DNA of 47,499 nt from Candidatus Woesearchaeota archaeon (GTDB lineage Archaea > Nanobdellota > Nanobdellia > UBA10117 > GCA-020343615). The notes beneath the pieces were generated by a model, which was given only the letters and a program-made list of their open reading frames with translations, had not been told where the DNA came from and ran no database searches. Location: contig CP070803.1 of the NCBI GenBank assembly GCA_020343615.1, positions 276,195-323,693 on the forward strand, read 5' to 3'. The translations under genes and the position numbers were made by a program. This document shows, in pieces, positions 7,349-20,112 of this stretch (its first letter is position 1; every line of letters starts with the position of its first letter).

Positions 7349-10300
7349 ATGCAGTCTTTAGAGAAAAAAGAGAAGTCTTACTTAATCATATCTCTGTTAA
7401 TATTAGGTCTAGTTATCATTAGTTCATATTTCTTAATTAATTCATTTCTTATTAAAGAAGACACCGACTCGATTGATGTTGGGTTAACTAGCTCTGTTAT
7501 AAGTGCTCCACAGTATGACATTGAAATTGGAGAATTTATAACATTAAATGGCAAAGAATATGCATTAAACAGGGATGTAGTAGATAATATAAGAATAGAA
7601 AAAAGAAGTGAAAAAATTGGAAAAGGTGAAAAGTTTTCCTATGTTTTTACTAATGTTGGTAACGAAGCTAAAAAATTGACTTTTGGTTGGAGAACTAGAA
7701 TAGGTAGCGAATACATAAAAATAAATAGTTATGATGCTAGTGAGAGTTTTGAAACTAGTAAAACTACCATCCATCTTCATAATAAAAACTCTAAAATAAA
7801 TTATCTTACTTTTGAGGACATAAAAAAAGCATTTGGTTATGTAAATATAAAGTATGAAGGTAATAGTAGAATACTAACTGCTGAGTCGTTTCCTGCTACA
7901 ATAGAACCTGAGAGGACTATAGAAGTTGATCCAGCATTTGGTCCTCTAGGTGAAACTAAATATTGTAACAGCTGTACTAATTGTACTACTGAAGTACAGA
8001 CTGCTAGTTCTGGAGATACTGTAAGGCTTACTCAGAATACTGAAACAAATCGAGATGGAACGTGTATAGACTTTGCCGGAAAAGACGATATTACTTTCAA
8101 TTGTAGCGGTTATTTGATTGATGGAGACGGAGATCAAAATGGATATGGTATACATTTAAATTCTATCAATGATGGTTCTAATAATAACACTATATTAAAT
8201 TGTAAGATTACAGAATTTTTTTTCGGTATTTATTTAAATAGATCTAATAATAACAATATGATAAATATTAATTCTTCTTCTAATCGAGGGGGGATGTATC
8301 TAATGGTTTCTAATTATAGTAACTTAACCAACATTATCACCAGTTATAATATAAATGGTGGAATATGGCTCTATGCTTCGAGTTATAATATTCTTGATAA
8401 TGTTACTTCTAAATTTGGTGGAAATGGTATTAATATAAATATCGCATATGGAAACACTATAATTAATTCAAATATTTTAGATAACACGTATAGGGATATT
8501 CATTTTGCTAGTGTTATTTCAGAAAGTTATTGTGATCATTATTTAGAAAATGTGAATAGTTCCGGTAATCGACCAATAGAATTCTATAATTATTCTATAG
8601 ACATAGAAGATAGAGTTCTATCTGAATTAATTCTCTGTGATGCGGATAATTCTAATATAACTAACGTAACTATAAGAGGTTCAGATTTATATAATAATAA
8701 TGTACTTGATATTTTAGAAACAAGTGAATCATATTTTAATAATACAAATTCTTCAAATAATCTTTATGGAATATATATATCATCAGATTCTGACTCAAAT
8801 AACTTTACAGATATTAAAGCATACAATAACGAACGAGACGGAATATATCTAGGGGCTACTTCAACTAATAACAAAATAAATAATTCTTTCTTCTGTGATA
8901 ATAATGAAGAAAGAGGGAGCTTTTATGATGTAAATGATTCAGATTCAAATATTTTCAATGAAATAACTTGTGATACTTCAAGTCCAGGCGGAATTTGTGA
9001 TTATGCTTGTAGTGCAGGTCCTATATGTGGAACATGGATTTATACAGATACTTATCTAACCCAGGATGTAACTGGCTGCACTGGTACTATTTTTTACATA
9101 GGAGCAGATGATATTACCTTAGATTGTCAAGGACATCGCTTAGAAACTAGCGGAGGTAATGCAATAAATAATACAGGCTATGATAATTTAACCGTAAGAA
9201 ATTGTACAATAAATTCAACAAGTGAAGATTTTACTATTTTTATTAAAGATTCTAATAGTACTAAAATATTAAATAATGATATCTCCGGAGTAAAAGGGAT
9301 AGAGCTTTATGGAGATATCTCTTATAATTCTATTCTAAATAATACTATTAATACCTCTGGATTAAGTAATTGTTACGGATTCTATATACATGATTATGAA
9401 GCCCCCTGGACTAGTTACAATTTAACAATATCAAATAATAAAATAACAACTAACGGATCAGATAATCCTGCAAATAGTGATGCAATATTTATTATCACTA
9501 ATACTATTAATATGCGCATAATAAACAATAGAATAAAAACAATTGGAACATGGAGCGATGGTATTTCTACAAGTAAATTAATAAATAATACTATGATTTC
9601 AGATAACAATTTTACAATTAAATCTAATGCTATTGAATTATTAGATTCAAGTGAAGAAACAAAGTATGTTAACGTAGCAAATAATATAATATTCGCCGAA
9701 AACGGTAATGGAATTTATATTTCAGAAAAGATTAAGACTCTTAAGATATTAAATAATAATATAACTTGTGATCAATACATTCCTATAGAAATTAATATTT
9801 TTAAGTATAATCTTAGTAACTCAAATGTATCTAATAATTATATCAAATCCAATGAACATCATGGGTTAGATTGCTCTGTAAATAACTTAACAGTCTTAAA
9901 TAATATTATAGAATCTTATAATGGAGTTCGTATTATAGGTGACCATTATATTCTTAGAAACAATACAATTATGTCTAGTGGAACTATTCCTTCATCTTCT
10001 GAAGGAATCAGTGTAGAGTCTTCTAATAATGTTAAAGTTATAGGAGGGTCTATAACTGGAGAACCAATAGTAAATAAAAATTTTGATTACCATATGAGAA
10101 ATACTAAGTCATCAGTTACTTTCAGAGATACTAACTTTACAGATATTAAAATAATAGAATTTTATAATGACGCAAGTTGGTTCAACTACAACAACGATTC
10201 TAGTGGAGGAGTCTGGCTTAAGACTAGAGTTAATGAGTCTACAGAGATAAATAGAACTCTATTTTCATGGACTCAGGATAAAATACAATGGAATGATACT

Positions 10301-13300
10301 GGTTCTGGAGTTACTGCTTATTATAATCTAACTGATCTTACAGATGGAGAGGATTATAGAGTTTATGATAATAGTGCTCTTCAACATACTCTGACTGCTA
10401 CTGGTGGTAAGATTAACTTCTCTGTGGTTTTAAGTGGAGAGCGTGAAATAAAAGTTGAGAAGTATATAGGACCAGCAACATATAATTGTAACAGCTGTGA
10501 TAATTGTACTACAGAAATCAATCAAGCTAATCCTGGAGATACTGTTTACTTGATTGATAATATATCTACTACTGGAAAATGTATTGACTTTAATGGCTCT
10601 GATGAAATAACATTTGACTGTCAAGGACACAATATTACAGGTGATGATTCTGGATTCTTTGCTTATGGAATTTGGTTAAATTCTTCAAATGGAGGTTCTG
10701 ATAACAATACTATAAAAAATTGTAAAATTACAGACTTTAATATAGGAATTCTAATAAATTCCGATTCTAATGTTATTAAGAATATAATCGCAAATTCAAA
10801 TGGAAAAGGTATAACTCTAAGTTCTGCAGATTACAACAATTTAACAAACATAACTGCAACTTCAAATACAGATTATGGAGTTTATCTAGTTAGTTCTCAT
10901 TATAATACTTTGACTAATATCAATACAAGTTATAGTAGTACTGATACAGGCATATATCTTTTTAGTGCGGATAATAATAACTTTACTAATATTTCATCAA
11001 ATTACAATGATTTCTGTGGTTTAGAATTACAAGGAAATAGTGATAATAACATCTTTATTACTTTAACTACAAATAATAATGATTTTGATGGAATACATCT
11101 TGATGGTGCAGATGATAATACTTTTATAAATGTGATATCAAATTCTAATTACTATGATGGAATTTGGTTCCAAGATTCATCTAACCGAAATAATTTTACA
11201 AATGTATTCGCAAGTTTAAATTTCCGAGGTTATGCTTGGTCTTCTCCCGGCAATATGCTTATAAACGCAACTTTATCCGAAAACAGAAGATATGATTTAG
11301 GTGACCCATTTGGTACTTGTGATACTTATATAGAAAATGTAACAGGATCTGGAGGTTTAGATATAGAGTATTATAATTATACTGTTAACATAGAAGATAA
11401 AATTCTTTCAGAACTTATACTCTGTGAGGCAGATAATTCCAATGTAACTAATGTAACAATAGTAGGTTCTAGCAGTATAAGAAATAACGGTTTGTTGATC
11501 GTTGGAACTAATTGGGCTAAAATTAAAAATATAAATTCTTCCAATAATTATGATGGAGTTGGTCTAATCATCGCCGATTTTAACAATTTAACCAATATCA
11601 CTTCTAATAATAGTAAATACGGTGTTGCTTTTAGATATACTTCCTCTTCGAATGTTCTAACTAATTCTAAAATAGAAAATTCAAATGGGAGCGGAATTAA
11701 TTGTTATCCAAATTCAAAAAATAATTCCATTTATAATAATTTATTCAATAATAATAATAATAGTATTTCATCTATTTGGTATGCTCCAAACATTGATTTA
11801 AACTATTGGAACACTACAAACCAAACAGGAACAAGAATTTATGGTCCTGGGACAAACATAGCAGGTAATGCTTGGATTAATGGTTCTGGAACAGGATATT
11901 ATTATGATTGTGTTGATTCAGATACAGATGGATTTTGTGATTATGCTTATGACGTAGAAAACGATAGAATGTGTCCATATAGTACTACAGAAATAGTAGC
12001 ATCTAATGGTGATGTCGGACAGAAGTCAAGCATAGCAATTGATTCTAATAATGTAAAACACATATCTTATTATAATTATACTGATAGTGATTTAGGATAC
12101 TGCAACGGAACCTATGGTAACTGGGATTGTGAAACTGTAGAAAGTAATGGTGTTGTTGGAAGTCAGTCAAGCATAGCAGTAGATTCTAATAATAATATCC
12201 ATATTTCTTATTTTCAGGATACTAATGATAATTTAGGATACTGCAACGGAACCTATGGTAACTGGGATTGTGAAACTGTAAGAAGTATCGGTTTTGGTGG
12301 AACCTTTACAAGCATAGCAATAGACCAATATGACAATGTTTACATATCTTATACTAATAGTACTAATGCTGATTTAGGATACTGCAACGGAACCTATGGT
12401 AACTGGGATTGTGAACACGTAGACACTACTAATAACGTCGGATATTATTCAAGCATAGCAATAGACTTAGATGATGTAGTCCACATATCTCACTGCGATT
12501 TTACTAACCAGAATTTAAGATATTGTAATAACTCAGGAGGCTCGTGGTCCTGTGATAACATAGAGACTACAGATTTTGTAGGATATTTTTCAAGCATAGC
12601 AATTGATTCTAACGATAATGTTCATATATCACATTGGAATTGGACTGGAGGAGATCTAAGATATTGTAATAACTTAGGAGGCTCTTGGAGTTGTGAGATA
12701 GTAGAAAATGGGATTTCCGGTGCACTTCTCGGAACAGAGTCAAGCATAGCAGTAGACTCCAATGATATTGTTCATATATCTCATTTTGATATGGGTAACT
12801 TAGATTTAAGATACTGTGAAAACTCTAAAGGTTCTTGGAGCTGCATGAAAATAGCAGATGTTTCTACACTAAATAATGGTGGAAGAAACTTAGCTATAAA
12901 TAAAGGAAGAATTGTGGATTCAACCGCTGATTCTAATATATCTATTTCATGGTACAACAATACTGATTTAATACATACTCGAGTAGAATCATGTTCAAAT
13001 AATACTGATTACTTGCCTTTAAGTGATAAGTATTCAGAAAATCTTTGTGGAATGTGGATTAATGAAGATACCATTCTAACTCAAGATATAACTGGATGTA
13101 TGAGGACTATTATTTACATAAATGCCTCAGATATCACTCTGGATTGTGATAGGCATTACTTGCAGAGCGAAGGAGATTATGGAATAAACAACACAGATCA
13201 CCACAACGTAACTGTGAAAAACTGCAACATCTCCATGAACGGCACTGATGGAGATGTCGGAATATATTACGAAAATGCGGACAACGGAACCATAAAGAAC

Positions 13301-15406
13301 AACATTGTAACAGTAGAAGATGATTATGCAATCTATCTCACCTCAAGCTCCGATAACACTATCTCCAACAACACTATAACAGCGGGTGATTATTTTGCAA
13401 TCTATCTCACCTCAAGCTCCGATAACACTATCTCCAACAACACCGCAACAGCAACTGGTAATCGTGCAATCTACATCCAGTCAAGCAACAACACTAATAT
13501 CATCAACAACACCGCAACAGCATATGCTTTTGCAATCTTCCTCACCCAAAACTCCAACAACAATACGGTCTCTAACAACAATGCAACAGCAACCTCTACT
13601 TCTGCAATCTATCTCACCTCAAGCTCCGATAACACTATCTCCAACAACACCGCAACAGCAATCTATTCTACAATCAGACTCGGCTCAAACTCCAATAACA
13701 ATATCCTTACAAACAACACCGCAACAGCATACAAATATGCAATCATACTCGAATCAAGCTCCGATAACACTATTTCCAACAACACCGCAACAGCAATCAA
13801 TTATACAATCTCCCTTTGGTTAAACTCCAACAACAATATCCTTACAAACAACACCGCAACAGCAACCGATAGTTATGCAGTCCACCTCTTCTTAAGCTCC
13901 AACAATAATATTACAGGAGGTTCGATAGTAGCCAACAACTTTGATTACTCTCTTAATGATGTAGGTTCAAGCAACACCTTCAGAAACACCAAATTCACAG
14001 CCCTAAGAGAAATCTATTTCACTGATACTACAAGCTTCTTCAACTACAACAACGATTCTAGTGGAGGAGTCTGGCTCAAGACTAGAGTAAGTGCAAGTCC
14101 TAGAACAATACCAAGAGAACTTTTCTCTTGGACTCAGGATTTAGTGCAATGGAATGATTCAGCATCTTCAGTAGTTATTGCTTATTATAATTTAACTGAC
14201 CTTATAGATGAGGAAGACTATAGAGTCTATATTGATACTGTTCTTCAACATACTCTGACTGCTACTGGTGGTAAGATTAACTTCTCTGTGGTTTTAAGTG
14301 GAGGTAATAATATAAGTGTTGAACTTATGCCGAATTTACCACCAGTGATAGTATTAGAAGATCCTTCTCCGAGCGGAGTAACTGGTCAACCTTTAGACGC
14401 GATTTTAAATGTCACAGTTACTGATCCAAATAATGATGATATGAATGTATCCTTCTGGGATAATGATACAGGATTGCAAATAGGTTCCACTCAACTTAAT
14501 ATAGCAAATGGTTCTTCTGTAAATATAACATGGTTTGATTTATTACCAGGAGTAACTTATTACTGGTATGCTAATGCAAGTGATGGTTCACTAATTACCC
14601 AGAGTGATTTATGGAACTTTACAACTACTAGAGATATTGATAGATGTACTAGAATAATAACTTCTGGAGCTTTTTACATAAAACAAGATATAATTGATTC
14701 AACTATTTCACCTTGCATAAATATATCTGCTAACAATGTATATTTAAATTGTGAAGATTATTGGGTTGATGGCGATGAAGTTGATGATGCTAATGATTAT
14801 GGAATTTATGCGTATAGAGATTCAGCAGAAAACTCAAATATTACTCTAGTATCTTGCTTCTTAAGTAATTGGACAGATGCTAATATTTACTTTAGATATG
14901 CAGATAACAACACCTTAAGAAAGATTAGATCAGTTTTTGGAAATGTGGGAATTCATCTATCCGACTCTGATTCTAGTGAGATAACTTACTCTAGATTCAT
15001 GAATAATAACTATGGAATATGGTTAAGTGGAGCTAGTGATAATCTTATTTACAATAACTTATTCAATAATACTATTAATGCTGACTTCACAGGAGGGGAT
15101 AATATAAATAATTGGACTGCTCCTTCACTTGTAATTCCCACAATTAAAAGAATCTACGGAAAAGGTGAAACAGGAGGTAATGCTTGGATGACTAGTACAG
15201 GAACAGGTTACTATTATGAATGTGAAGATGCTGATAGAGACGGCATATGTGATAATCCGTACGACGTGTATAATAATACATTCCTGTGTGATTCGAATAA
15301 TTGTGATATGTTGCCTCTAAGTAGCGCTTTAAAGAGTAGAGGGCCAATAACTTATAGAATAACATTTAGATCTAGACTTCTAAAGATATTTAGAAGCATA
15401 TTGTAA
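7349..15406 (+). CDS. Giant membrane-anchored beta-helix surface protein
   Basis: A 2685-residue protein with one N-terminal membrane helix (about 12-32), so most of it lies outside the cell. Visible architecture: a unique domain (about 40-200); NosD-like parallel beta-helix blocks at about 205-540 and 550-930; a module with FNYNNDSSGGVWLK (about 940-1040); a third beta-helix (about 1045-1540); a beta-propeller-like block of six or seven 47-50-residue repeats containing SIAID and HISY (about 1550-1880); a fourth beta-helix with nine near-identical rungs (about 1895-2215); a second copy of the module (about 2225-2328); an Ig/fibronectin-like domain starting PPVIVLEDPSP (about 2329-2430); and a fifth beta-helix (about 2431-2650). 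Cys-rich openers (CNSC, CGTWI) mark the blocks. It is very rich in Asn, Ser and Thr with many N-glycosylation sequons. Likely a cell-surface stalk, adhesin or glycan-binding protein; no catalytic residues were identified. Confidence 0.9.
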   Translation: MQSLEKKEKSYLIISLLILGLVIISSYFLINSFLIKEDTDSIDVGLTSSVISAPQYDIEIGEFITLNGKEYALNRDVVDNIRIEKRSEKIGKGEKFSYVFTNVGNEAKKLTFGWRTRIGSEYIKINSYDASESFETSKTTIHLHNKNSKINYLTFEDIKKAFGYVNIKYEGNSRILTAESFPATIEPERTIEVDPAFGPLGETKYCNSCTNCTTEVQTASSGDTVRLTQNTETNRDGTCIDFAGKDDITFNCSGYLIDGDGDQNGYGIHLNSINDGSNNNTILNCKITEFFFGIYLNRSNNNNMININSSSNRGGMYLMVSNYSNLTNIITSYNINGGIWLYASSYNILDNVTSKFGGNGININIAYGNTIINSNILDNTYRDIHFASVISESYCDHYLENVNSSGNRPIEFYNYSIDIEDRVLSELILCDADNSNITNVTIRGSDLYNNNVLDILETSESYFNNTNSSNNLYGIYISSDSDSNNFTDIKAYNNERDGIYLGATSTNNKINNSFFCDNNEERGSFYDVNDSDSNIFNEITCDTSSPGGICDYACSAGPICGTWIYTDTYLTQDVTGCTGTIFYIGADDITLDCQGHRLETSGGNAINNTGYDNLTVRNCTINSTSEDFTIFIKDSNSTKILNNDISGVKGIELYGDISYNSILNNTINTSGLSNCYGFYIHDYEAPWTSYNLTISNNKITTNGSDNPANSDAIFIITNTINMRIINNRIKTIGTWSDGISTSKLINNTMISDNNFTIKSNAIELLDSSEETKYVNVANNIIFAENGNGIYISEKIKTLKILNNNITCDQYIPIEINIFKYNLSNSNVSNNYIKSNEHHGLDCSVNNLTVLNNIIESYNGVRIIGDHYILRNNTIMSSGTIPSSSEGISVESSNNVKVIGGSITGEPIVNKNFDYHMRNTKSSVTFRDTNFTDIKIIEFYNDASWFNYNNDSSGGVWLKTRVNESTEINRTLFSWTQDKIQWNDTGSGVTAYYNLTDLTDGEDYRVYDNSALQHTLTATGGKINFSVVLSGEREIKVEKYIGPATYNCNSCDNCTTEINQANPGDTVYLIDNISTTGKCIDFNGSDEITFDCQGHNITGDDSGFFAYGIWLNSSNGGSDNNTIKNCKITDFNIGILINSDSNVIKNIIANSNGKGITLSSADYNNLTNITATSNTDYGVYLVSSHYNTLTNINTSYSSTDTGIYLFSADNNNFTNISSNYNDFCGLELQGNSDNNIFITLTTNNNDFDGIHLDGADDNTFINVISNSNYYDGIWFQDSSNRNNFTNVFASLNFRGYAWSSPGNMLINATLSENRRYDLGDPFGTCDTYIENVTGSGGLDIEYYNYTVNIEDKILSELILCEADNSNVTNVTIVGSSSIRNNGLLIVGTNWAKIKNINSSNNYDGVGLIIADFNNLTNITSNNSKYGVAFRYTSSSNVLTNSKIENSNGSGINCYPNSKNNSIYNNLFNNNNNSISSIWYAPNIDLNYWNTTNQTGTRIYGPGTNIAGNAWINGSGTGYYYDCVDSDTDGFCDYAYDVENDRMCPYSTTEIVASNGDVGQKSSIAIDSNNVKHISYYNYTDSDLGYCNGTYGNWDCETVESNGVVGSQSSIAVDSNNNIHISYFQDTNDNLGYCNGTYGNWDCETVRSIGFGGTFTSIAIDQYDNVYISYTNSTNADLGYCNGTYGNWDCEHVDTTNNVGYYSSIAIDLDDVVHISHCDFTNQNLRYCNNSGGSWSCDNIETTDFVGYFSSIAIDSNDNVHISHWNWTGGDLRYCNNLGGSWSCEIVENGISGALLGTESSIAVDSNDIVHISHFDMGNLDLRYCENSKGSWSCMKIADVSTLNNGGRNLAINKGRIVDSTADSNISISWYNNTDLIHTRVESCSNNTDYLPLSDKYSENLCGMWINEDTILTQDITGCMRTIIYINASDITLDCDRHYLQSEGDYGINNTDHHNVTVKNCNISMNGTDGDVGIYYENADNGTIKNNIVTVEDDYAIYLTSSSDNTISNNTITAGDYFAIYLTSSSDNTISNNTATATGNRAIYIQSSNNTNIINNTATAYAFAIFLTQNSNNNTVSNNNATATSTSAIYLTSSSDNTISNNTATAIYSTIRLGSNSNNNILTNNTATAYKYAIILESSSDNTISNNTATAINYTISLWLNSNNNILTNNTATATDSYAVHLFLSSNNNITGGSIVANNFDYSLNDVGSSNTFRNTKFTALREIYFTDTTSFFNYNNDSSGGVWLKTRVSASPRTIPRELFSWTQDLVQWNDSASSVVIAYYNLTDLIDEEDYRVYIDTVLQHTLTATGGKINFSVVLSGGNNISVELMPNLPPVIVLEDPSPSGVTGQPLDAILNVTVTDPNNDDMNVSFWDNDTGLQIGSTQLNIANGSSVNITWFDLLPGVTYYWYANASDGSLITQSDLWNFTTTRDIDRCTRIITSGAFYIKQDIIDSTISPCINISANNVYLNCEDYWVDGDEVDDANDYGIYAYRDSAENSNITLVSCFLSNWTDANIYFRYADNNTLRKIRSVFGNVGIHLSDSDSSEITYSRFMNNNYGIWLSGASDNLIYNNLFNNTINADFTGGDNINNWTAPSLVIPTIKRIYGKGETGGNAWMTSTGTGYYYECEDADRDGICDNPYDVYNNTFLCDSNNCDMLPLSSALKSRGPITYRITFRSRLLKIFRSIL
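10130..10460 (+). repeat. Duplicated module, copy 1 (copy 2 at 14000-14325)
   Basis: This segment encodes a module that includes FNYNNDSSGGVWLKTRV and LQHTLTATGGKINFSVVLSG. It recurs at 14000-14325, with stretches of 50-60 bases that are identical or nearly so (around 10180-10232 against 14038-14092, and 10378-10438 against 14245-14305). Each copy closes a beta-helix block. Confidence 0.85.
11989..12990 (+). repeat. Six to seven beta-propeller-like repeats inside the giant gene
   Basis: Each unit is about 141-150 bases and encodes SIA(I/V)D, HIS(Y/H), L(G/R)YCN and W(D/S)C in that order. The segment coding DLGYCNGTYGNWDCE is identical at the nucleotide level in the first three units (near 12090, 12232 and 12373), which points to recent duplication or gene conversion. 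The last unit is degenerate. The number of units fits a six- or seven-bladed propeller. Confidence 0.75.
13327..13920 (+). repeat. Tandem repeat of about 69 bases encoding beta-helix rungs
   Basis: About nine units of roughly 66-69 bases encode 22-23-residue rungs of the form AIYLTSSSDNTISNNTATA. Several are nearly identical in DNA. The tract uses AAC, ATC and ACC codons heavily, whereas the rest of the gene prefers AAT, ATA and ACT. It looks recently expanded and may vary in copy number between strains. Confidence 0.85.
14000..14325 (+). repeat. Duplicated module, copy 2
   Basis: Second copy of the module described at 10130-10460. Its near-identical DNA stretches make it a likely substrate for recombination that would delete or duplicate the 3.9 kb between the copies. 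Confidence 0.85.
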
Positions 15407-15440: not shown

Positions 15441-16556
15441 ATGAAATACTTAGAAAAAATTCCAAAAGAAGTTATAAAAGACTTTAAAGAATTAAGACCT
15501 TGTCAAATTAAATCATTAAAGTCAGGATTATTAGAAGGAAAAAACCTTCTTGTTTGTACACCAACTGCTAGTGGAAAAACATTAGTTGCTGAAATAGCAG
15601 CAATAAATAGAATAAATCAAGGAAAATGTATATATATCGTTCCACTAAAAGCATTGGCTCTTGAAAAAAATCAAGACTTTAAGAAAAAATACCCCAAATT
15701 AAAAATTTCTGTATCTATAGGAGACTTAGACTCGAGTGATCCTTGGTTAGCCGATTCAGATATTATTATAACAACTAGTGAAAAGATGGAGTCTCTAATA
15801 AGACACGGTTCTCCTTGGATAAGTAAAGTAGCTACGATTATAATAGATGAAATTCATCTTATCAATGACCCGGGAAGAGGACCCACACTAGAAATACTTG
15901 TTACATTATTAAAAAAAATCTTACCAAATGCTCAGTTAATTGCTTTATCTGCTACTATAGGGAACCCTAAGGAACTTACAAAATGGTTGGGAGCGAATTT
16001 AGTTATCGACGACTGGAGACCTGTAAAACTCTATCAAGGAATTTATGCTGAAGATGAAATTGACTTCTTTAATAAAAAAGATAACGTATTAATTCCACTA
16101 AAAACCGAACCTGCTGTTGATATAGCTCTGGATACCATTCAGAAAAACAAACAAGCCTTAGTTTTTTGTAATACTAAAAGATCAGCTGAAGCAACTGCAG
16201 AAAGAATATCTAAATTACAAAAATTAAATCCAGAATTAAAAAAGATGAGTGAAGATATTCTAAAAGTACTTTCTAGTCCAACAAAACAATGTAGAAGATT
16301 ATCCTATTGTATTAAGCATGGCATTGCATTTCATCACGCAGGACTTCCCTCTAAACAAAGGTCAACCATAGAAACTGCTTTTAGAGATAAAAAAATAAAG
16401 ATAATTTGTTGTACTCCTACTTTAGCAATGGGAATCAGCATGGATGCTTTTAGAACAATAATAAAATCTTTAAAGAGGTATTCTCCTAGATGGGGATATA
16501 TGTGGATACCAGTACTAGAATATCATCAATGTGCAGGACGTGCAGGAAGGCCTTAA
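15441..16556 (+). CDS. hel308: Hel308-type DNA helicase, N-terminal half (RecA1 and RecA2)
   Basis: The 371 residues hold both RecA domains of an archaeal Ski2-like DNA helicase. Motifs in order: Q-like LRPCQIKSL (18-26), I TPTASGKT (40-47), Ia YIVPLKAL, Ib TSEKMESL, II DEIH (136-139), III SAT (170-172), IV ALVFCNTKRS, IVa AFHHAGL, V TPTLAMGIS, and VI QCAGRAGRP, which is also the very end of the protein. Hel308 normally has about 700-720 residues, continuing through winged-helix, ratchet and helix-loop-helix domains. Those domains are encoded separately at 19002-20039; the two parts add to 716. Known role of the family: 3'-5' unwinding at stalled replication forks. The downstream kinase-like gene begins one base after the TAA stop. 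Confidence 0.95.
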   Translation: MKYLEKIPKEVIKDFKELRPCQIKSLKSGLLEGKNLLVCTPTASGKTLVAEIAAINRINQGKCIYIVPLKALALEKNQDFKKKYPKLKISVSIGDLDSSDPWLADSDIIITTSEKMESLIRHGSPWISKVATIIIDEIHLINDPGRGPTLEILVTLLKKILPNAQLIALSATIGNPKELTKWLGANLVIDDWRPVKLYQGIYAEDEIDFFNKKDNVLIPLKTEPAVDIALDTIQKNKQALVFCNTKRSAEATAERISKLQKLNPELKKMSEDILKVLSSPTKQCRRLSYCIKHGIAFHHAGLPSKQRSTIETAFRDKKIKIICCTPTLAMGISMDAFRTIIKSLKRYSPRWGYMWIPVLEYHQCAGRAGRP

Positions 16557-16557
16557 A

Positions 16558-17259
16558 ATGAAAACTGAGATAAAAAGGCAGAGTGTACATTTCCTTGGAA
16601 TACTCTTAGGGTTATTTATAGTGTATCAAGGTTTTTATGATTCTCTAAGGCTATTAGCTGGGCTTGTTTTTGCAACGTTGTTATTTAATTGGTATTATGG
16701 TAAGAGACATGATAGAAGAGCTTCATTTAAAGACACCATTAATGACTCATGGATAATATCGAAAACTAAAAGAGAAGAGATAGTTAAATCCGCAGATAAA
16801 TTTTATGAGTTCGAAGAAAAACTTTTTGAGAAGATTCTTGATAAAACTGGTCTAAGAGATAGAGAAGAAGATCCTACAATACCTCCGCTGTACTTCTTTA
16901 TATCTAGTCTAATTTGCTTAATATTCTTAGGCAGAGAAATAACTGTTTTAGTAATAATTACATTAGCAGTAGGCGATTCATTATCTGCGATTGTTGGCAA
17001 GAAATACGGCAAGCATAAAATCCATTGGAGTAAGAAAAAGAGTTACGAAGGAACTATAGCGTTTTTTATATTTGTGTTCATAGCAATATATATTTTCATT
17101 TCCTTCCTACCCGAATTTGCAATATTCCACCCAATAACACTTTCCTTATCCGCTGCTCTCTTCGGTGCTCTAATAGAAACAGAACCTACTTTAACAGATA
17201 ATTTCAGTATTCCTGTATTTACAGGAGTCATTTTATACTTAATAGCATACTTGATTTAA
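16558..17259 (+). CDS. Dolichol/phytol kinase-like CTP-dependent lipid kinase
   Basis: About 233 residues from the ATG at 16558 (MKTEIKRQSVHFLG). A GTG at 16531 would overlap the helicase end and is less likely because an AGGAAGG-like site precedes the ATG. It is an integral membrane protein with several hydrophobic segments at the N-terminus (about 8-38), the middle (about 108-140) and the C-terminus (about 150-230). The diagnostic block is GDSLSAIVGKKYGKHKIHW followed by KSYEGT, characteristic of the dolichol kinase/phytol kinase/SEC59 family, which phosphorylates isoprenoid alcohols or diacylglycerol using CTP. In archaea the substrate may be a polyprenol or an archaeol precursor; this is not resolved by sequence. 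It is followed one base later by a phosphatidyltransferase. Confidence 0.82.
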   Translation: MKTEIKRQSVHFLGILLGLFIVYQGFYDSLRLLAGLVFATLLFNWYYGKRHDRRASFKDTINDSWIISKTKREEIVKSADKFYEFEEKLFEKILDKTGLRDREEDPTIPPLYFFISSLICLIFLGREITVLVIITLAVGDSLSAIVGKKYGKHKIHWSKKKSYEGTIAFFIFVFIAIYIFISFLPEFAIFHPITLSLSAALFGALIETEPTLTDNFSIPVFTGVILYLIAYLI

Positions 17260-17260
17260 G

Positions 17261-17830
17261 ATGTTAGAAAAAGTAGATAAGAAATATGATCCTAGAAGAT
17301 TTCTGGATATATTTGTAATAAGAATAGATCCTAATAAGATTACTACTTTAGCCTTAATTGTAGCTATAATCGCAGGGTACTTTTTTTATAGTGGAAATAT
17401 TCTCTTAGCTGCAATATTTGTATTGTTAAATGGATTTCTGGACGTATTAGATGGTCGAATTGCAAAGAAATATGGAACTACTAAATTTGGAGATTTCTTA
17501 GATCATACAGTTGATAGATTAGCAGATGTTGCTATTTTAGTTGGTATAGCTTTAAGTGAGTTTGTTCCAGTAGAACTTGGATTTGCAGCACTAGTATCCC
17601 TTCTTTTAGTATCTTATTTAGGAACACAATCTCAAGCAATAACTCATAAGAGAGTATATTCTGGGATGGTTGGAAGAGCAGATAGGCTAGTAATCATAAG
17701 CATTGCTTCAATACTCAATATATTCTACGGTAAGGCCTTATATTATGGTATTTGGTTAATCTTGATATTATCTATTTTTACGTTTATTCAGAGATTCCTT
17801 ATTTGTAAGAATACTATAAAGTCTTCTTAG
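17261..17830 (+). CDS. CDP-alcohol phosphatidyltransferase (archaetidylinositol-phosphate-synthase-like)
   Basis: A 189-residue membrane enzyme with about five or six hydrophobic segments. The family signature is present as DVLDGRIAKKYG (about 67-78) followed by GDFLDHTVD (about 83-91); the usual Arg after Ala is Lys here. These Asp residues bind the metal that activates the CDP-lipid. The form DGRIAKKYGTTKFGDFLDH resembles archaeal archaetidylinositol phosphate synthases, but serine or glycerol phosphate as acceptor is possible. It would use the CDP-archaeol made by the CarS enzyme encoded at 18445-18960. Its last 63 bases overlap the convergent PHP gene, an unusually long overlap. Confidence 0.85.
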   Translation: MLEKVDKKYDPRRFLDIFVIRIDPNKITTLALIVAIIAGYFFYSGNILLAAIFVLLNGFLDVLDGRIAKKYGTTKFGDFLDHTVDRLADVAILVGIALSEFVPVELGFAALVSLLLVSYLGTQSQAITHKRVYSGMVGRADRLVIISIASILNIFYGKALYYGIWLILILSIFTFIQRFLICKNTIKSS

Positions 17831-18451
17831 CTTATAATGTATACCCACAATAAATAGGGTCCTTTCACCTACCCAAAGAACCTCTCCATTTTTTATCTTT
17901 GATAAAAAACTTTTAACATTTAAATTACAATCTGCAATTGTGTATGCTCTTCCTATCTCGCTAAGTATATGTGCATCTGAACCTGCTACCTGAACCATAT
18001 CCAATTCATTTGCTACCTGAATTGCTTTTTTATTTTCTATTAAATTAGCGGAATTGAAAGCTTCTATAGCATCTAAATCTAATTCCTTTACTTTATCCCT
18101 AAGAGATTGGCGATGAAAGATAAAAGCATAGGGGTGTGCAGCAACAGCTAAACCTCCTTGCTTATGAATTCTCTTTATTGTTTCTTCAGGAGATAGTCCT
18201 TTTTTTATTGGTTTTTTTATATTTAAAGCCACAATATGGCCGCTAGTGGTACTGATTTCTTGCCCAGGAATTAGTAATAAACCAACATCATCTGCTATTT
18301 TTTTAGCTTCTTTAATAGCAGACATCGTGTTATGATCTGCGATTGTAATACCATCTAATCCCCTTTTCTTAGCTGTTAAAATCACGTCTTTCACAGGAGA
18401 ATAAGAACATTTAGAGTGATTCGTATGTACATGAAGATCTATCTTTACCAT
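17768..18451 (-). CDS. PHP-domain metal-dependent phosphoesterase
   Basis: A 227-residue soluble protein. PHP motifs: DLHVHTNHSKCS (about 5-16), GLDGITIADHNT (about 31-42), GQEIS (about 63-67), AAHPYA (about 103-108) and GSDAH (about 157-161). These His and Asp residues form a multinuclear metal site. Relatives include YciV-like 3',5'-nucleotide phosphatases/5'-3' exonucleases and various uncharacterised phosphoesterases, so the substrate is open. The start overlaps the end of carS by seven bases, suggesting one transcript with carS. The C-terminal 20 residues (Arg/Lys-rich) are encoded opposite the end of the phosphatidyltransferase. Confidence 0.87.
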   Translation of the reverse strand: MVKIDLHVHTNHSKCSYSPVKDVILTAKKRGLDGITIADHNTMSAIKEAKKIADDVGLLLIPGQEISTTSGHIVALNIKKPIKKGLSPEETIKRIHKQGGLAVAAHPYAFIFHRQSLRDKVKELDLDAIEAFNSANLIENKKAIQVANELDMVQVAGSDAHILSEIGRAYTIADCNLNVKSFLSKIKNGEVLWVGERTLFIVGIHYKLRRLYSILTNKESLNKRKNR

Positions 18452-18960
18452 GGTTCTCTCTTTAATTTTAATTTATAAGCTAGTCTATTAGTTATTATAT
18501 GTATTAGAGGAGTAATAATTAATAAAATTATCAGGTAAGTAAAATTTATTTCTATTACAAAAGAAGCAAATAGAAATGCTCCCAATACAAAATCTAATTG
18601 ATCTAATAATGGCAAGTGTTTGCCTCTTTTCATATCAAGCCTTCTTTTTACAAAGGATCCAATTATATCTCCTACCAGTGCTCCTAAGGACATCATAAAA
18701 GCTAATTTTACAGTCATTAATGGTTCAATATTAGTCAAACCTTGAATTGTTCCAAAAATAGTACCTGCTATAACTCCAAAAATTAAACCATTCCAAGTTT
18801 TTCCTTCCCCGAATATAACCTTACCCTTCCAAAGCTTTCCAAAATCAATAGGTTTATTGTATCTTTGTAATTTTTCCAATTTACTTATAACGGGAGGAGT
18901 CGCATTAGCTATATAAGCCGGAATGACAAACCAAATAGCTTTTAATATTTCTTCAAGCAT
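18445..18960 (-). CDS. carS: CDP-archaeol synthase
   Basis: A 171-residue membrane protein matching CDP-2,3-bis-(O-geranylgeranyl)-sn-glycerol synthase, which activates the unsaturated archaeal lipid core with CTP. Visible motifs: YIANATPP (about 16-23), GEGKTWNG (about 51-58), a LGALVGDIIGSFVKRRL block (about 91-107) and LPLLDQLDF (about 116-124), whose Asp residues bind the metal. Four or five hydrophobic helices are seen. Its product would feed the CDP-alcohol phosphatidyltransferase at 17261-17830. It is divergent from the Hel308 C-terminal half, with 41 bases between the start codons. Confidence 0.93.
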   Translation of the reverse strand: MLEEILKAIWFVIPAYIANATPPVISKLEKLQRYNKPIDFGKLWKGKVIFGEGKTWNGLIFGVIAGTIFGTIQGLTNIEPLMTVKLAFMMSLGALVGDIIGSFVKRRLDMKRGKHLPLLDQLDFVLGAFLFASFVIEINFTYLIILLIITPLIHIITNRLAYKLKLKREPW

Positions 18961-18961
18961 A

Positions 18962-18990
18962 AATTAATAATTAAAAAACCGATATATAAG
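18962..18990 (+). promoter_or_regulatory. Divergent promoter region of carS and the Hel308 C-terminal half
   Basis: The 41-base gap contains TTAATAATTAAAAAAC (about 30 bases before the ATG at 19002) and GATATATAAG (18981-18990). Either could serve as TATA box. It shows that the C-terminal helicase gene has its own promoter and is not simply dead sequence. Confidence 0.45.
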
Positions 18991-19001
18991 ATTTCCTAAA
19001 A

Positions 19002-20039
19002 ATGGAAGAAAAATACGGAGAAGCTATTTCCATAGCCAAGTCAAAGGATGAAAAGAAAAAAATATTAGAAGAGTATATCAAAGGTAAACCAGAAGCAATT
19101 ACTTCTAAATTAGCTGTAGAACCAGTATTAAGAAGCAGCATCTTAGGTTTAATTTCCACAGGATTCATCTACACAGAAAAAGGCTTATTTGATTTCTTCA
19201 AATCTACATTCTATGGTTTTCAATATAAAGATGATATCTCTTTGAATGAGAAGCTGATAAAAATATTGGAAAAACTTGAGAAGTATGAATTTATTGTTAG
19301 AGATAAAGAAAAACTTAAGGTCACTTTACTTGGAAAAAGAATTGCTGAATTATATATTGATCCTGAATCAGCTTGGACATTGATAAATGGCTTAAAAAAT
19401 GGCACAGGAATTATGCCCGCCATTTCAGTATTACAATTAATCTGCAGCACTATTGAAATGGAGCCTCTTAGAGTAACTAGCGCAGAATGGGATGAAATAC
19501 AAGCTAAATTAATTAATATTAAAGATAGGCTATTATTAAAAGAACCTAGTGAATGGGATCCTGAATACGAATTCTTTACAGCTTCAGTAAAAACTGCTTT
19601 TATACTTGAAGACTGGATCGAAGAAAAATCAGAAGAACACATCTTAGAGAAATATAAATTAAGACCCGGTGAATTGTATGTCAAGCTTCAGAATGCTGAT
19701 TGGCTACTTTACTCCTGTCAGGAGCTAGCTAGAATATTAAACTTAAAACCATTACAAATACCAATTAGAAAAACTAGACTACGTATGAAATATGGAATAA
19801 GAGAAACCTTAATTCCTTTAGTTAAATTAAGAAATGTTGGGCGTGTGAGAGCAAGAAGATTATTCAACATTGGAGTCAAAGATTTAGGAGATCTTAAAAG
19901 AATAGATATCAATAAATTATCAAGACTTTTTGGAACCAATATTGCAATATCTTTAAAAAATCAAGTAGGAGTAAAAATAGATTCATCGAAAATTACTAAG
20001 ACCAAGAAAAGAGGACAGCAAGATTTAAATTCATATTAG
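19002..20039 (+). CDS. Hel308-type helicase, C-terminal half (winged helix, ratchet, HLH)
   Basis: The 345 residues start MEEKYGEAISIAK, which aligns with the segment that follows the GRAGRP motif in intact Hel308 proteins (typically G-x-D-x-YGEAI). The protein continues with the winged-helix region (SKLAVEPVLRSSIL and DFFKSTFYG), the long-helix ratchet domain (SAWTLINGLKN... through LYVKLQNADWLLYS) and the terminal helix-hairpin module RNVGRVRARRLFNIGV. It carries no helicase motif of its own and must pair with the 371-residue N-terminal half at 15441-16556 to make a working enzyme. Both halves are intact and separated by 2.4 kb and four genes. The TAG stop shares its last base with the first base of tRNA-Pro. 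Confidence 0.93.
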   Translation: MEEKYGEAISIAKSKDEKKKILEEYIKGKPEAITSKLAVEPVLRSSILGLISTGFIYTEKGLFDFFKSTFYGFQYKDDISLNEKLIKILEKLEKYEFIVRDKEKLKVTLLGKRIAELYIDPESAWTLINGLKNGTGIMPAISVLQLICSTIEMEPLRVTSAEWDEIQAKLINIKDRLLLKEPSEWDPEYEFFTASVKTAFILEDWIEEKSEEHILEKYKLRPGELYVKLQNADWLLYSCQELARILNLKPLQIPIRKTRLRMKYGIRETLIPLVKLRNVGRVRARRLFNIGVKDLGDLKRIDINKLSRLFGTNIAISLKNQVGVKIDSSKITKTKKRGQQDLNSY

Positions 20040-20112
20040 GGGTGGTGGTCTAATCTGGTATGATCCTTGGTTCGGGGCCGAGAGATTGCCGGTTCAAATC
20101 CGGCCCATCCCA
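20039..20112 (+). tRNA. tRNA-Pro (CGG)
   Basis: The 74-base cloverleaf has acceptor GGGGTGG/CCATCCC, anticodon stem CTTGG/CCGAG with loop TTCGGGG, T arm GCCGG-TTCAAAT-CCGGC and discriminator A. Anticodon CGG reads CCG. No encoded CCA. The first base is the last base of the preceding TAG stop codon, so RNase P would cut exactly at the end of that reading frame if the two are co-transcribed. Confidence 0.95.

Follow-up and report, generated by a model that had tools for sequence, protein, structure and literature searches.

Hel308 encoded as two half-genes in a Candidatus Woesearchaeota archaeon: a probable gene fission within RecA2 and its counterparts in related genomes

Hel308 (Hjm) is an archaeal Ski2-like helicase of superfamily 2 (SF2), known from structures such as PDB codes 2p6r, 2zj2 and 2va8, that serves at stalled forks and in recombination (PMC7776575). 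Split genes, for their part, have been described in Nanoarchaeum equitans and Nst1 (Podar 2013, PMC3655853), and Table 1 of that report lists Lhr, reverse gyrase, DNA polymerase and others; a passage in PMC8185306, citing Capp 2010, describes the N. equitans reverse gyrase as split into two polypeptides. Here, we describe a hel308 gene that is itself divided in two. It lies in a stretch of 47,499 nucleotides from a Candidatus Woesearchaeota archaeon (the window, meaning the whole stretch of DNA that was analysed), which spans positions 276195-323693 of a genome consisting of a single contig of 919,375 bases (genome G000). The half-genes, and the two sides of the seam at which they part, have the following window coordinates, lengths being in amino acids (aa):

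15441..16556, + strand: Hel308 N-terminal half (N-half), 371 aa; RecA1 and RecA2 through motif VI (GRAGRP)
16536..16556, + strand: seam, N side; the GRAGRP codons directly abut TAA (16554-16556)
18987..19004, + strand: seam, C side; in-frame TAA (18987-18989) and ATG start (19002-19004)
19002..20039, + strand: Hel308 C-terminal half (C-half), 345 aa; predicted last strand and helix of RecA2 (~residues 5-26), winged helix, ratchet domain 4 and helix-hairpin-helix (HhH)

The original prediction, made from the letters of the window, was that Hel308 is split here into two genes, and the open reading frames (ORFs) bear this out: the N-half protein ends with QCAGRAGRP (EYHQCAGRAGRP), followed by TAA, and the C-half protein begins MEEKYGEAISIAKS (MEEKYGEAI). 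The start of the latter is forced, there being an in-frame TAA five codons upstream and no alternative start codon between. Each half has its own start and stop, as predicted; the TATA-like promoters that were also predicted fared less well, as a scan for the TTTAWAWA box found none upstream of either half, and only AT-rich TATA-like stretches occur. The halves lie on the same strand, 2.4 kb apart, and sum to 716 aa. NCBIfam PRK02362, the Hel308 model of 739 positions, is matched by the N-half at positions 21-382 (E 2e-130) and by the C-half at 386-717 (E 2.5e-84), and the alignments to the PDB Hel308 2zj2 are equally complementary (21-372 and 376-689, respectively). Judged from these matches, the halves complement each other and nothing substantial of Hel308 is lost, again as predicted. 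In alignment, the N-half carries the SF2 Ski2-like motifs ASGKT, DEIH, SAT, FHHAGL (motif IVa, F/YHHAGL) and GRAGRP. The C-half contains the remaining hallmarks of Hel308, namely, the winged helix, ratchet domain 4 (Pfam Helicase_dom4_arc, E 1e-33), with its conserved Trp in ADWLLY, and the C-terminal HhH; GRVRARRL is also present. Thus, all the domains and motifs of Hel308/Hjm are present in the same order and at normal total length, but what is ordinarily one continuous polypeptide is here made as two chains, each from its own gene, with the break in the loop that follows motif VI, inside RecA2; as in other archaeal split genes, two separate ORFs jointly cover a protein that is intact in relatives. 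There is no second Hel308 in the 919-kb genome: a DEAD-family search returned only the N-half and two other helicases, and a search with the 716-aa Hel308 returned the two halves only. A word, CCTnAAAATG, is common to the N-half stop and the C-half start; it may be what is left of the junction before the cut, although it is too short to count.

The same split had been predicted to be worth seeking in related genomes, and it was found among 18 genomes of the window's order. Hel308 is present in 13 of these, being intact or merely cut by a contig end in 11 and split in two, G000 and G006, the latter an independent assembly from another family; it was not seen in the remaining five (G001, G012, G015, G016 and G017). 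The G006 halves, which lie on one contig, 25 kb apart and on opposite strands, are:

L034 3954-5111, - strand: G006 N-half; ends YHQMTGRAGRP-stop
L035 3946-5010, strand opposite to the N-half: G006 C-half; starts MTEKYGEAISIAKS (MTEKYGEAI)

The seam is identical, to the residue, with that of G000, whereas the gene context is different. Moreover, among the columns that are invariant in 15 intact relatives (83 in the N-half and 40 in the C-half), G000 keeps 81 and 39, respectively, and G006 keeps 82 and 40, and the end-branch lengths of the split halves are in line with those of intact Hel308 genes. From their sequences, we read both halves as working genes rather than debris.

According to the original prediction, the cut separates the ATPase motor from the accessory domains, a claim that the predicted fold contradicts. 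In a model of the intact relative G004 (707 aa, with GRP ending at residue 383), built with the aligned family (pLDDT, the predicted local distance difference test score, 89.5), the motif VI helix (370-377) is followed by a loop, strand 388-394 (YGEAISI), helix 398-409 and further helices from residue 423. The seam, at residue 383, is predicted to fall in that loop, ahead of strand 388-394, which we take, by analogy with other SF2 helicases, to be the last strand of RecA2. Since the seam precedes that strand, the model and the analogy together place the cut inside RecA2, in a loop, and not at the motor/accessory boundary, so that the C-chain would bear the motor's last strand and helix ahead of the winged helix. 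When modelled alone (pLDDT 86), the C-half finds its best PDB match in the Hel308 2p6r (E 6e-18), but its first ~36 residues are mostly of low confidence (block means 46-74), with no strand formed by YGEAISI. Because this piece of RecA2 resides in the C-chain and is disordered in the lone model, assembly of the two chains in trans is likely; the original wording, that they must so assemble, was too strong. In intact relatives, the loop at the seam comprises 5 or 6 residues (GMEKY, GMEAF, GMEEF, DFDNAF and GRGIDE among others) and, by this comparison, appears tolerant of variation. The nearest intact relatives of G000 (G004, G007, G010 and G002) have Met as the second loop residue after GRP, which may have offered a ready-made start codon for the C-half.

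We therefore favour, with good though not full confidence, a fission of hel308 in the RecA2 loop, the two chains working together as a heterodimeric Hel308, a reading drawn from alignment and predicted structure. An intact hel308 would have been broken at the surface loop that joins motif VI to the last β-strand of RecA2, giving two separate intact genes that were later moved apart by rearrangement. Given that Hel308 is non-essential in most archaea encoding it (PMC7776575), a lineage could survive such a transition. The N-chain would comprise RecA1 and the greater part of RecA2, and with them the ATPase motifs and the hairpin that separates the strands, which sits in RecA2; to the C-chain would fall the rest of RecA2 (its last strand and the helix after it), together with the winged helix, ratchet domain and HhH. 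The first ~26 residues of the C-chain would fit into the N-chain's RecA2 and supply the strand and helix that it lacks, and the winged helix and ratchet would pack as they do in one-chain Hel308. Such a heterodimer may then behave like an ordinary Hel308, unwinding forks and D-loops in the 3'-5' direction. No unwinding is expected of the N-half by itself, as deletion of domain 4 is reported to abolish the helicase activity of Hel308 (PMC4267639).

Two observations weigh against this heterodimeric reading. Motif V of the N-half is unusual, GISMDAFR as opposed to GVNLPAFR in most relatives, and rpoA1 of the same genome (L101, G000:C1:877666-880167) has an in-frame TAA approximately three quarters along, beyond which the frame runs on for 191 aa with no obvious new start. 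The latter stop is either a sequencing error or another broken or split gene, so that base errors or further odd genes do exist in the G000 assembly. It also lends what support there is to the idea, envisaged as a danger in the original prediction, that a wrong join broke an intact hel308; this is exceedingly improbable, as both breakpoints fall exactly at the stop and start codon of one seam with no residue lost, the independent genome G006 has that seam in another gene context, and the genome is one contig devoid of any other Hel308. Very unlikely, too, is that Hel308 is decaying and the halves are what remains of it: the enzyme was not seen in five of the order's genomes, but in two distantly related genomes each half has an open frame with almost all of the invariant residues, and the end branches are not unusually long. 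The sequences thus point to hel308 having truly undergone fission, and not to misassembly or a pseudogene. There could also be separate jobs for the products, the N-chain as a stand-alone ATPase or annealing factor and the C-chain as a DNA-binding protein, with no joint helicase. The halves are unlinked in G006 and four genes apart in G000, such that co-transcription is not evident; even so, the N-chain would lack the last strand of RecA2 and the ratchet, the RecA2 strand kept in the C-chain has no partner in that chain's own fold, and conservation equals that of intact enzymes, all of which make such a division of labour improbable.

Other ways of rejoining the halves were considered and rejected. 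A split intein at the seam is rejected, as GRAGRP directly precedes the stop, the C-half starts at Met, and there is no intein sequence on either side. The split DNA polymerase of N. equitans uses a split intein; unlike that enzyme, Hel308 has no intein pieces at its seam, and no protein trans-splicing is, therefore, expected. LAGLIDADG inteins do occur in class relatives (L143, L144 and L145), at motif V of Hel308 (TPTL/C...), ~40 residues upstream of the seam. RNA trans-splicing is likewise rejected, the duplex energies of the flanks being weaker than the shuffle mean in both G000 and G006.

Whether the shared seam was cut once or twice can be addressed through gene context and phylogeny. 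At the hel308 locus of intact relatives, type-IV-pilus-like genes lie upstream, and a methyltransferase and SecF-SecD downstream. In G006, the pilus genes are still upstream of the N-half, and SecDF and the methyltransferase are on another contig; hence, it was the C-half that moved, the N-half having kept the ancestral locus. In G000, both halves have left that locus, and SecDF is at 819-821 kb. A single fission, shared by the two genomes through descent or lateral transfer, would account for the identical seam, and the Hel308 tree does not reject G000 and G006 as sisters (approximately unbiased (AU) test, p 0.118); in both, moreover, the N-half is followed at a short distance by a convergent PHP gene. 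This shared neighbour does not establish a common origin, as the G000 and G006 PHP proteins are no closer to one another than either is to that of G004. Against one fission also stand the retention of the G006 N-half at the ancestral locus and a tree of EF-2 and RpoA1 (first 653 residues only for G000 RpoA1), which groups G000 with lineages of intact Hel308, namely, G001, G004 and family f3 (100/99), and rejects its sisterhood with G006 (AU p 0.0001). We regard a single fission as possible, if doubtful; because of the EF-2 and RpoA1 result, the seam probably arose in each lineage independently, a second cut at a permissive loop being likelier, on these sequences, than one shared event.

A second, larger split was found in surveys of the window's class (374 and 371 genomes). 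Among the matches listed, at least 129 genomes have a Hel308 C-piece that starts at query position ~199-228, in the RecA1-RecA2 linker. A separate RecA1 piece (an ORF of ~220-275 aa) was found elsewhere in 22 of the 23 linker-split genomes checked, none being seen in the 23rd, G036. Where the genome is a single contig, 37 kb (G053) and 142 kb (G236) separate the two pieces; those of G053 are:

L036 3894-4598: G053 RecA1 gene, ~230 aa
L037 3794-5329: G053 gene for RecA2 to HhH, ~520 aa, unlinked to the former

Two of the linker-split records (L047 and L048) are metagenome-assembled genomes of Candidatus Woesearchaeota, so that the class belongs with the Woesearchaeota-like DPANN archaea, and the motif V inteins occur in intact and linker-split genes alike. 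In a tree of RecA2 plus the C-terminal domains, the 23 sampled linker-split genes form one clade (SH-aLRT, Shimodaira-Hasegawa-like approximate likelihood ratio test, 99), sister to the window's order, and the linker split would thus apparently have a single origin. The intact Hel308 of G049 (L063 7385-9484) is nested inside this clade, as are those of other genomes of family f26, possibly through re-fusion or gene transfer. Taking the two seams together, we lean, by no great measure, towards Hel308 being an obligate two-chain helicase in this class, having undergone fission at least twice, and probably three times: two families of the window's order have the cut in RecA2 after motif VI, and the sister clade has it across the ATP site, in the linker joining RecA1 to RecA2. 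If so, RecA1 and RecA2 made as separate chains can reconstitute the motor of a Ski2-like helicase, and assembly of the two Hel308 chains could be a control point.

The locus resembles the split genes of N. equitans and Nst1 in that a DPANN archaeon with a reduced genome has an information-processing protein cut in two, which would assemble after translation; it departs from them in that Hel308 is absent from Table 1 of PMC3655853 and that the seam lies inside a RecA domain. With the split DNA polymerase of N. equitans (PMC3655853), it shares the encoding of a repair/replication enzyme in two genes. The reverse gyrase, an SF2-helicase-containing enzyme in two polypeptides, provides a precedent, although, going by the passage in PMC8185306, its cut falls between the helicase and topoisomerase parts, whereas here the cut is within the helicase core. 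No published split Hel308 was found in full-text literature searched for Hel308 with split genes, DPANN or Woesearchaeota; subscription papers are mostly uncovered there, and this absence is not proof. What is new is the enzyme, a seam inside a RecA domain and the recurrence; gene splitting in Nanoarchaeota, split helicases included, was already known. The expectation of a new trait thus holds for the literature covered, but the trait is not unique to this genome, as G006 has the same seam. The two splits amount to a natural experiment on where an SF2 motor tolerates a break, inside RecA2 or between the RecA domains, with the conserved residues nearly all kept. In these small-genome archaea, gene splitting repeatedly strikes the same repair enzyme, and one of the Hel308 splits, far from a transient mishap, seems to be kept across an entire clade. 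The split pairs are also ready material for asking whether two chains can come together as a functioning ratcheting helicase, and whether this assembly serves to regulate it.

The four genes that separate the halves in the window, a count that agrees with the original prediction, are unrelated to Hel308:

16558..17259, + strand: CTP_transf_1 family membrane protein (dolichol-kinase/phytol-kinase-like); a homologue adjoins PHP in G001
17261..17830, + strand: CDP-alcohol phosphatidyltransferase (archaetidylinositol-phosphate-synthase-like)
17768..18451, - strand: PHP-domain phosphoesterase
18445..18960, - strand: CDP-archaeol synthase CarS

The ATG of the CTP-transferase-like gene (16558) comes 1 base after the N-half TAA, and the 3' ends of the CDP-alcohol transferase and PHP genes overlap (17768-17830). 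The first three genes (16558-18451) form a cluster that also occurs in G001, and partly in G004, without Hel308 there. Directly upstream of the N-half, the window encodes a 2685-aa NosD/beta-helix repeat protein (7349-15406), and at the other end, a tRNA-Pro(CGG) gene (20039-20112) takes as its first base the last base of the C-half stop codon.

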